Assembly (NCBI RefSeq): GCF_029255545.1
Contig: NZ_JANLJJ010000020.1
Span: 36,717 to 75,971, forward strand
DNA: 39,255 nt
Source: Ferrovibrio sp.
Lineage (GTDB): Bacteria > Pseudomonadota > Alphaproteobacteria > Ferrovibrionales > Ferrovibrionaceae
Reading direction: 5' to 3'
Part shown: positions 31,451 to 33,549 of the stretch, piece by piece
Numbering within the stretch: position 1 is the stretch's first letter
Layout of the letters: every line of letters starts with the position of its first letter
Position numbers and translations under genes: made by a program
Notes under the pieces: model-generated
Told to the model about the DNA's origin: nothing
Databases searched by the model: none
What the model saw: the letters and a program-made list of their open reading frames with translations, nothing else

Positions 31451-31954
31451 TCAGGTCTTTTTCTTGCGGAAGGCATCCAGCGCGACGACATCGCCGGTCT
31501 TGCGCTCACCCGCGTCTTCGCCGGCTGGCGTGGCGGGAGTCGCCTCGGCCTCGCCGACCGGGGACGGGCTGCTGATGGCCGGCCGCGCTTCCATGTTGGG
31601 CGCGACGCGGAACTGCAGGCCGAACTGCACGCTGGGATCGGCAAAGGCGGTGATTGCCGCATAGGGGATCACCAGGCGCTCGGGCACCTTGTTGAAGCTG
31701 AGCGTGATCTGGAAGGCCTCCTCCTGCGCTTCCAGCCCCCAATACTGGTGCTGCAGCACGATGGTCATCTCTTCCGGATAGCGTTCGTGCAGGTAATCCG
31801 GCAGTTCGACGCCGGGCTGGTCGGTGCGGAAGGTGACGTAGAAATGGTGATTGCCGGGCAGGCCGAATTCAGCGACGCGCTTCAGCGCCTCGCGCACCGC
31901 ACCGCGCAGGGCAGTTTCCACCAACTGGTTGTAGTCGAGCAGCTTGCCGGCCAT
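31451..31954 (-). CDS. sspB: ClpXP adaptor SspB (alphaproteobacterial form)
   Basis: A 167-residue adaptor that binds ssrA-tagged proteins and hands them to the ClpXP protease. The substrate-binding domain covers residues 1-110 and starts MAGKLLDYNQLVETALRG, with HHFYVTFRTDQPGVELPDYL and AFQITLSFNKVPERLVIPY. A flexible Pro/Ala/Glu-rich linker (about 118-150) leads to the C-terminal GDVVALDAFRKKK, the ClpX-docking tail of this family. It is encoded on the same strand as, and about 150 bases downstream of, the ssrA gene whose tag it should recognise. Fumarase follows. Confidence 0.95.
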   Translation of the reverse strand: MAGKLLDYNQLVETALRGAVREALKRVAEFGLPGNHHFYVTFRTDQPGVELPDYLHERYPEEMTIVLQHQYWGLEAQEEAFQITLSFNKVPERLVIPYAAITAFADPSVQFGLQFRVAPNMEARPAISSPSPVGEAEATPATPAGEDAGERKTGDVVALDAFRKKKT

Positions 31955-32070: not shown

Positions 32071-32103
32071 AATGCCGCCTACGGGCGGATATCGGGGAGA
32101 AGT

Positions 32104-32378
32104 GGGGGGCTTCTGTTGCCCGGCGCCCCCCGAGCCGCGCTTACCTATTAGGCAGCGAGTGCAACGCTATTGTCGTTGGCACTTAGAGATTGACCCGATA
32201 ACGGCGGTATCATGCCGGGCAAAAACCGAGCCTTTATTGCGCACGTCGAGCCTGATTCGCCCCCATCATCAACCCGGCCGGGAATGTGTCCGGGCTCATG
32301 GTGGAGGCGCCGGGTACTGCCCCCGGGTCCGTTACGCCTATGCCGCGCGGCGTTTATCGCCATAGTCGGTTTCCCGAC
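32104..32378 (-). ncRNA. ssrA: Two-piece, circularly permuted tmRNA gene
   Basis: Read on the minus strand, the acceptor piece comes first and the coding piece second, the order known from alphaproteobacterial split tmRNAs. The acceptor piece ends in CGCCTCC-ACCA (32309-32299) and has a perfect 5-bp T-stem, CCGGG/CCCGG, with a non-standard loop GGCAGTA. A 34-base spacer (32298-32265) follows. The coding piece then starts GGGGGCG (32264-32258), which pairs with CGCCTCC over 7 bp, with a G-U at the third pair, the alanine identity element. The segment GAATCAGGCTCGACG is the D-like region near the 5' end. The tag frame is at 32180-32151. A hairpin GGGGGGC/GCCCCCC at 32131-32104 lies near the 3' end. 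The outer limits are approximate; mature ends are set by processing. Confidence 0.9.
32148..32180 (-). other. ssrA: tmRNA tag reading frame (ANDNSVALAA, stop)
   Basis: Codons GCC AAC GAC AAT AGC GTT, then GCA CTC GCT GCC and TAA, read ANDNSVALAA from 32180 to 32151, with the stop at 32150-32148 and a second in-frame TAG right after it. ANDN at the start and ALAA at the end are the hallmarks of alphaproteobacterial ssrA tags; the AA end is the ClpX degron and the AND region is the SspB site. The preceding UAAGU resembles the element that sets the resume codon. Confidence 0.92.
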
Positions 32379-32384
32379 AGACCC

Positions 32385-32413
32385 AATGTAGGGGGTCGGG
32401 GGCGGTTTTTGAA
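32385..32413 (-). promoter_or_regulatory. Promoter of ssrA
   Basis: On the minus strand TTCAAA (32413-32408), a 17-base spacer and TACATT (32390-32385) form a sigma-70-like promoter, four of six matches in each hexamer. Transcription would begin near 32378, just before the acceptor piece. Confidence 0.5.
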
Positions 32414-32431
32414 GGCCCGCGGCCCAAAGGG

Positions 32432-32462: not shown

Positions 32463-32610
32463 ACTCCCGGGCGGGTGGCCGGGAGCGGTGCGGCGGAACC
32501 GGGGCTTTTTCAGACCCAGGACTTTTTGAGACTCGGCCCGCCGGTCTATAACCACCTGCCTTTCGCCCGGCGACCCGAGTCGCCGGACTTTGCCCGCCGG
32601 AGAGACCCGC

Positions 32611-33549
32611 ATGACCATGACGCCGGAACAGGCCGCCGAGATCGCCGCCCTGCGCAGCCAGTCCCAGCCGACCCGCCGCGCCACCGTGCCGGCGCTGGAG
32701 GACATCCTCTACGAACCGCTCAATGTGCTCGATCATGGCTTCGTCCGCGTCATCGACTACATGGGCGACGACAGCGCCGTGGTACAGGCCGCCCGCGTCT
32801 CCTATGGCCGTGGCACCAAGAAGATCAGCGAGGATCGCGGCCTGATCAACTACCTGATGCGGCACCGGCATACCACGCCGTTCGAGATGTGCGAGATCAA
32901 GTATCACGTCAAGCTGCCGATCTTCGTGGCACGGCAGTGGATCCGCCATCGCACCGCCAACGTCAACGAATATTCGGCGCGCTATTCGATCCTGGACAAC
33001 GAATTCTACATCCCCGCCGCCGACCAGCTGGCGGCGCAGTCGAGCTCCAACCGCCAGGGCCGGGGCGATCTGCTGACCGGCGCGGAAGCCGCGCGGGTGC
33101 TGGACCTGCTGAAGCGCGACGCGATGCAGTCCTATGCCTCCTACGAGGAAATGCTGAACGAGCGGCCGGATGGCAGCAAGCGCGACGAAAGCCGCGAGGG
33201 TCTGGCGCGCGAACTGGCGCGTATGAATCTGACGCTGAATTTCTATACCCAGTGGTACTGGAAGACCGACCTGCTGAACCTGCTGCATTTCCTCAGCCTG
33301 CGCGCCGACGGCCATGCGCAGTATGAAATCCGCGTCTATGCCGAGGCGATGCTGGATACCGTGAAACGCTGGGTGCCGGCCTGCTACGACGCCTTCATGG
33401 AATACCGCGTTGGCGGCGCCAGCCTGTCGGCCACGGCGCTGAAAACGGTGCGGCGCATGCTGGCCGGGGAAACCGTCGATCAGGCCGGCTCAGGCCTGAG
33501 CGCGCGGGAATGGCGCGAATTAATGGCTGTGCTCAAGCCGGAGGCCTGA
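32611..33549 (+). CDS. thyX: FAD-dependent thymidylate synthase
   Basis: A 312-residue flavin-dependent enzyme that methylates dUMP to dTMP with methylene-tetrahydrofolate and NADPH. The ThyX motif RHR-X7-S is present as [11 protein letters not shown] (residues 112-122) and is followed by ARYS. Other family parts are [20 protein letters not shown] near 80-100 and [20 protein letters not shown] near 210-230. The start at 32611 has GGAGAG 6 bases upstream; an in-frame ATG at 32590 is less likely. Length is at the long end of the family, with a 40-residue N-terminal lead. It is divergent from ssrA. Presence of thyA elsewhere cannot be judged. Confidence 0.96.

Follow-up and report, generated by a model that had tools for sequence, protein, structure and literature searches.

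A permuted ssrA gene of alphaproteobacterial type between thyX and sspB in a Ferrovibrio genome

The gap between sspB and thyX in the analyzed DNA of Ferrovibrio sp. (39,255 nucleotides, in the following called the window) holds, with near certainty, a permuted ssrA gene of the alphaproteobacterial type, which is the only copy that the assembly shows; this is the best explanation of the locus, its mechanism included. The gene form, the tag, the pairing potential, the single copy found, and the presence of smpB and sspB are direct observations. The locus is an ordinary one with the permuted form usual in its class, and a preliminary description of it was correct in both observation and interpretation.

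When the whole window was searched with cmscan, only two Rfam matches exceeded their cut-offs, and both are located at the ssrA locus. The alpha_tmRNA model (RF01849), on which the preliminary description had staked its reading of a two-piece ssrA gene on the minus strand, matches positions 32417-32101 (-) over model positions 1-355 of 355 with 247.1 bits and an E-value of 8.9e-71, the curated gathering cut-off being 50 bits. This match extends slightly beyond the interval 32378-32104 because it takes in the apparent promoter at one end and the final bases of the coding piece at the other. The tmRNA_permuted model (RF04321) matches positions 32361-32148 (-) with 149.6 bits. Independently of Rfam, ARAGORN also reports a permuted tmRNA and yields the same tag, ANDNSVALAA. 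The elements appear in the permuted order of acceptor piece, spacer, and coding piece (Table 1), and the CGCCTCC-ACCA acceptor end, the 34-base spacer, the GGGGGCG start, and the tag all lie on the minus strand where they had been placed beforehand. As also described earlier, the acceptor strands pair at seven of seven positions when aligned by eye (G-C, G-C, G-U, G-C, G-C, C-G, and G-C); the third pair is G3-U70, and the CCA end is encoded. G3-U70 is the alanine identity pair that is read by alanyl-tRNA synthetase. The tag frame starts with an alanine resume codon, has a hydrophobic tail, and ends with two stop codons.

Table 1. Features of the ssrA locus and its direct neighbors, in window coordinates.
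Feature	Position	Strand	Description and basis
Likely ssrA promoter	32385..32414	-	CTTCAAAA at 32414-32407 and TACATT at 32390-32385
Acceptor piece, ~80 nt	32299..32378	-	Rfam, ARAGORN, and sequence; exact 5' end inferred
5' hairpin of acceptor piece	32378-32365	-	GTCGGGAAACCGAC
T-arm	32326-32310	-	CCGGG-GGCAGTA-CCCGG; loop GGCAGTA at 32321-32315
Acceptor 3' strand	32309-32303	-	CGCCTCC
Encoded ACCA	32302-32299	-	
Internal spacer, 34 nt	32265..32298	-	Removal expected
Coding piece, ~164 nt	32101..32264	-	Acceptor 5' strand, tag frame, and 3' hairpin; exact 3' end inferred from model
Acceptor 5' strand	32264-32258	-	GGGGGCG
Tag frame	32145..32180	-	GCC AAC GAC AAT AGC GTT GCA CTC GCT GCC TAA TAG (ANDNSVALAA)
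3'-terminal hairpin of coding piece	32104..32131	-	GGGGGGC / GCCCCCC around conserved GCAACAGAA
sspB	31451..31954	-	PF04386, E 2.9e-44; directly downstream of ssrA, same strand
thyX	32590..33549	+	PF02511, E 4.3e-56; divergent upstream neighbor

The gap itself, first put at 650 bases, measures 635 bases from the sspB start at 31954 to the first possible thyX start at 32590, so that the earlier figure was close. Open reading frames overlie it on both strands; a Pfam scan of four of these gave no match at E 0.001. One minus-strand frame of 185 codons (32705-32148) terminates in the tag itself. The finding is of value for annotation, as an ssrA gene under overlapping spurious frames is easily missed by readers of open reading frames, and it supplies the tag of this organism, ANDNSVALAA.

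In the alpha_tmRNA alignment, the coding piece has a gap of about 40 model positions following the tag, and the segment between the tag and the 3' hairpin is therefore short. The region of this hairpin, folded alone, was no more stable than shuffled sequences (z 0.18). The missing positions could point to a decayed, non-functional copy of ssrA. This is highly improbable, as both the tag frame and the acceptor pairing are preserved, an equally short segment is seen by eye in eight of nine loci of the same genus (it is longer only in locus L003), and no further copy was found in the genome, which is 97.59% complete; a pseudogene was rejected on these grounds. The genome assembly (4.1 Mb in 116 contigs) contains one alpha_tmRNA copy. 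No match to the standard one-piece tmRNA (RF00023) exceeded the cut-off of 47 bits anywhere in the genome, and none lies at the ssrA locus; there are 12 weak matches, the best of which reaches 43.4 bits over 76 nt. A single SmpB is encoded in a frame of 157 amino acids without stops (PF01668, E 1.6e-58).

Permuted tmRNA genes of this type are the rule among the relatives. Of 18 genomes in the family, 16 have an RF01849 match over the cut-off, and all 11 of good quality have a match; among the ten genomes sampled from the genus, one, 72% complete, was without a match. In a sample of 142 genomes from the class, including the one analyzed here, 133 had a match at E 0.001, 131 of them over the cut-off, and nine had none. 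The two with a match below the cut-off are G075 and G100, whose tmRNA is instead of the standard one-piece kind. In G100, RF00023 matches with 152.9 bits (L068:359-762), and in G075 with 73.2 bits at a locus cut by the contig end (L069:352-605); both also have an alpha_tmRNA match below the cut-off.

For a comparison of individual traits, 123 loci were collected. Twenty-four were excluded beforehand as weak or partial matches or as pattern-search hits that often repeated other loci (L017, L018-L033, and L064-L070), and of the remaining 99 loci eight could not be parsed (L039, L062, L071, L076, L085, L107, L116, and L120). The parser required seven of seven acceptor pairs, and the resulting 91 loci include that of the window and the odd locus L003. 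Their T-loops are GGCAGTA (42 loci), GGCGGTA (35), GGCAGTG (12), GGCAGAG (1), and TGCGACT (1), whereby these counts, like those of tags and spacers, lean to typical members because the higher-scoring loci of the class were taken. The T-loop of the window had been described as departing from the usual TTCGA form. This is literally true, but GGCRGTR is the rule in the class (89/91) as well as the Rfam alpha_tmRNA consensus, and GGCAGTA is its commonest variant. Tags of 10 and of 12 codons are equally frequent (32/91 each); a 2025 paper on a tmRNA database with 97,179 sequences counts 11,946 permuted ones and gives 10 amino acids as the most frequent tag length (PMC11915505). Spacers range from 5 to 232 nt with a median of 38 nt (90 of 98 loci parsed, L003 left out). 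T-loop, tag length, and spacer length were thus dropped as distinguishing traits, and the novelty implied at first by the missing label, the T-loop, and the spacer does not hold because all of these traits are typical of the lineage across the parsed loci. The tag follows the pattern ANDN[SR]VALAA in eight of nine loci of the genus, including the window's own. A degenerate tag pattern found 16 stretches in the GTDB genome collection, among them ones from Elstera litoralis and Desertibaculum subflavum, and a search of genome contigs for the exact 33-base tag stretch gave no match. A literature search returned no paper that combines Ferrovibrio and tmRNA.

The likely promoter of ssrA falls within positions 1-38 of the Rfam model. 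Among 16 loci of the family, CTTCAAA precedes the tmRNA at the corresponding position in 12, including that of the window, and a -10-like element, sought with a loose pattern, is present in all 16. A scan for the E. coli-type consensus called no promoter for ssrA. By analogy with homologues and from established knowledge, one transcript would start near 32378 (-) from the promoter at about 32414-32385 and fold, with the acceptor strands pairing across the 34-nt spacer, which is probably itself a hairpin. Processing of the tRNA type would then excise the spacer and leave two pieces joined by base pairing, an acceptor piece ending in CCA and a coding piece. Charging with alanine via G3-U70 and binding of SmpB would allow entry into stalled ribosomes, where A+ANDNSVALAA would be added before the ribosome terminates, and the tagged protein would be degraded by ClpXP with the aid of the neighboring SspB. 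Cleavage into two pieces of ~80 and 164 nt is what Caulobacter and Sinorhizobium lead one to expect. In Sinorhizobium meliloti, pieces of 82 nt and 204 nt have been seen by northern blot (PMC2245857), and the form and function of the two-piece tmRNA of Caulobacter have been described in a review (PMC3985003). The general picture of trans-translation is unchanged by this locus.

The spacer of the window contains two arms, AGCCCGG (32296-32290) and CCGGGTT (32277-32271), that can pair. Folded alone, the spacer region of the window was no more stable than shuffled sequences (z -0.29), and the structure line of RF01849 draws the spacer unpaired. Paired arms were examined in spacers from the 90 parsed loci, without a fixed register in 76 loci (spacers of at least 24 nt) and in a defined register in 66 loci (at least 30 nt). 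With both spacer ends counted from 0, offset 4 denotes the register that matches base p of the 5' side with base p+4 of the 3' side. In 15 loci of the family with 14 distinct arm pairs, 89.5% of positions 1-7 form standard pairs at offset 4, a register whose choice is not independent of the data because it was suggested and counted on the same family sequences. Neighboring registers gave 41.9% and 46.7%. When the 3' arms were swapped between species, which are related so that the swaps leave their kinship in place, the value was 75.8% (sd 2.6), and none of 1000 swaps reached 89.5%. At offset 4, 14 of the 15 family loci contain five or more consecutive pairs, and both arms vary, for example with G-C in place of C-G at two positions.

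Across 51 loci of the class, the signal is weaker and no longer confined to one register. True partners exceed swapped ones at offset 4 (52.4% vs 42.8%), offset 3 (50.7% vs 41.4%), and offset 2 (47.1% vs 39.0%); runs of at least five pairs were found in 9/51 loci at offset 4 and in 6/51 at offset 3, with 42/51 lacking such a run at offset 4. A register-free helix score was higher for true partners than for swapped ones both in the class (15.74 vs 11.45, sd 0.36; n=61, 300 swaps) and in the family (19.93 vs 14.23, sd 0.88; n=15). From the sequences, the precursor can be read as a single extended hairpin, with the CCA and the nucleotides before G1 opposite each other in an internal loop between the acceptor stem and the spacer stem; such a shape might help the cutting. 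It is conceivable, though somewhat doubtful, that the spacer is not filler and that its arms, whose distance from the two cut sites is fixed, form a processing signal resembling an extended acceptor stem. As part of the same reading, and with the same reserve, this stem would be one that the Rfam structure does not contain and that differs in strength among alphaproteobacterial lineages. No paper on pairing of the spacer arms was recognized in a literature search whose reach did not extend to older key papers. The paired arms represent a small, testable point on the cutting of permuted tmRNA precursors.

The same arms, pairable in 14 of the 15 family loci, could also hold both parts together in an RNA that is transcribed, left uncleaved, and active as a permuted single molecule. 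This was rejected as very improbable, since charging needs a free CCA end, whereas the encoded ACCA is internal in the precursor, and since the homologues of S. meliloti (PMC2245857) and Caulobacter (PMC3985003) consist of two pieces.

Besides sspB and thyX, a fumarase gene identified with Pfam neighbors ssrA on the minus strand, and the order thyX-ssrA-sspB-fumarase is kept within the genus Ferrovibrio. ThyX is encoded beside ssrA in nine of nine loci of the genus and SspB in eight, the exception L003 ending at a contig end. Within flanks of up to 1.5 kb, ThyX, SspB, and fumarase are each present at 12 of 16 loci of the family; among 30 loci of the class the values are 23/30 for SspB, 10/30 for ThyX, and 8/30 for fumarase. 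Conservation of both genes flanking the tmRNA in alphaproteobacteria has already been reported (PMC2245857). For the SspB of the window, three different sequences with solved structures gave matches (PDB 2nys, 2qas, and 2qaz). SspB is an adaptor thought to hand tmRNA-tagged proteins to ClpXP. About 30 bases upstream of sspB, the scan for the E. coli-type consensus found the promoter-like site TTGAAC-17-TAAAAT (32013-31985, minus strand), which suggests that sspB need not depend on transcription of ssrA. An origin from a phage or genomic island was rejected as extremely unlikely: permuted tmRNAs do occur in the phage RcRudolph and in a probable prophage region (L064 within L134), but thyX, sspB, and fumarase also adjoin ssrA in relatives, sequence and tag follow the genus, and a phage collection gave a single record with a 37-nt match.

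Several unusual tmRNA loci were encountered elsewhere. Rhodobacter phage RcRudolph (OP009285.1) has a full-length permuted tmRNA match at about 49.09-49.45 kb (L133:2939-3303; alpha_tmRNA 94.8 bits, tmRNA_permuted 103.6 bits), which overlaps the CDS RCRUDOLPH_61, annotated as 'hypothetical protein', with no tmRNA label among the features shown. A divergent permuted tmRNA with 72.8 bits, the tag ANDNSPVAMAA, and the T-loop TGCAAGT (L064:210-550, minus strand, G112:C5, in L134) adjoins a tRNA-Pro gene and accompanies a normal permuted tmRNA (L073) in the same genome. Four nearby open reading frames, compared with PHROGs, gave a terminase large subunit, a major head protein, an unknown phage family, and no match, respectively, and this tmRNA is probably prophage-borne. 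For L071 (G150:C49), ARAGORN reports the 21-codon tag ANQNNAFVVACNDNAPIAIAA, which exceeds all 91 parsed tags in length and may result from a misread start. In L003:1-355 (minus strand, G007:C123), at a contig end, the sequence is almost that of L013, a locus of the same genus, from the upstream region through the acceptor piece; beyond the CCA, both the spacer and the coding piece are different, and the tag reads ANDNHKAPVALAA. The contamination of this genome is 6%. L003 is probably an assembly chimera, although an integrated element could look alike. A weak 83-nt alpha_tmRNA match below the gathering score (L017:1501-1583, G011:C67, 23.4 bits) has its recognizable similarity in GCCGGGCAACAGAAG, a stretch known from the 3' hairpin of coding pieces.

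Among known systems, the alpha_tmRNA family RF01849, which includes ssrA of Caulobacter crescentus and Sinorhizobium meliloti, shares with the window's ssrA the gene order, the acceptor stem, the GGCRGTR T-loop, an ANDN-type tag, and the 3'-terminal GCAACAGAA hairpin. The window's gene differs from it in the shorter segment between the tag and the 3' hairpin and in its own 10-codon tag sequence. The tmRNA_permuted family RF04321 is alike in the tRNA-like domain of the permuted form, with no difference seen; the base pairs of this model are confined to the shared tRNA-like domain (PMC11915505). The ssrA genes of other Ferrovibrio spp., Elstera, and Desertibaculum resemble that of the window in tag type, neighbors, and spacer stem. 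Within the genus (eight loci, L003 excepted), the spacers are 34-90 nt long and vary in length and in loop sequence.
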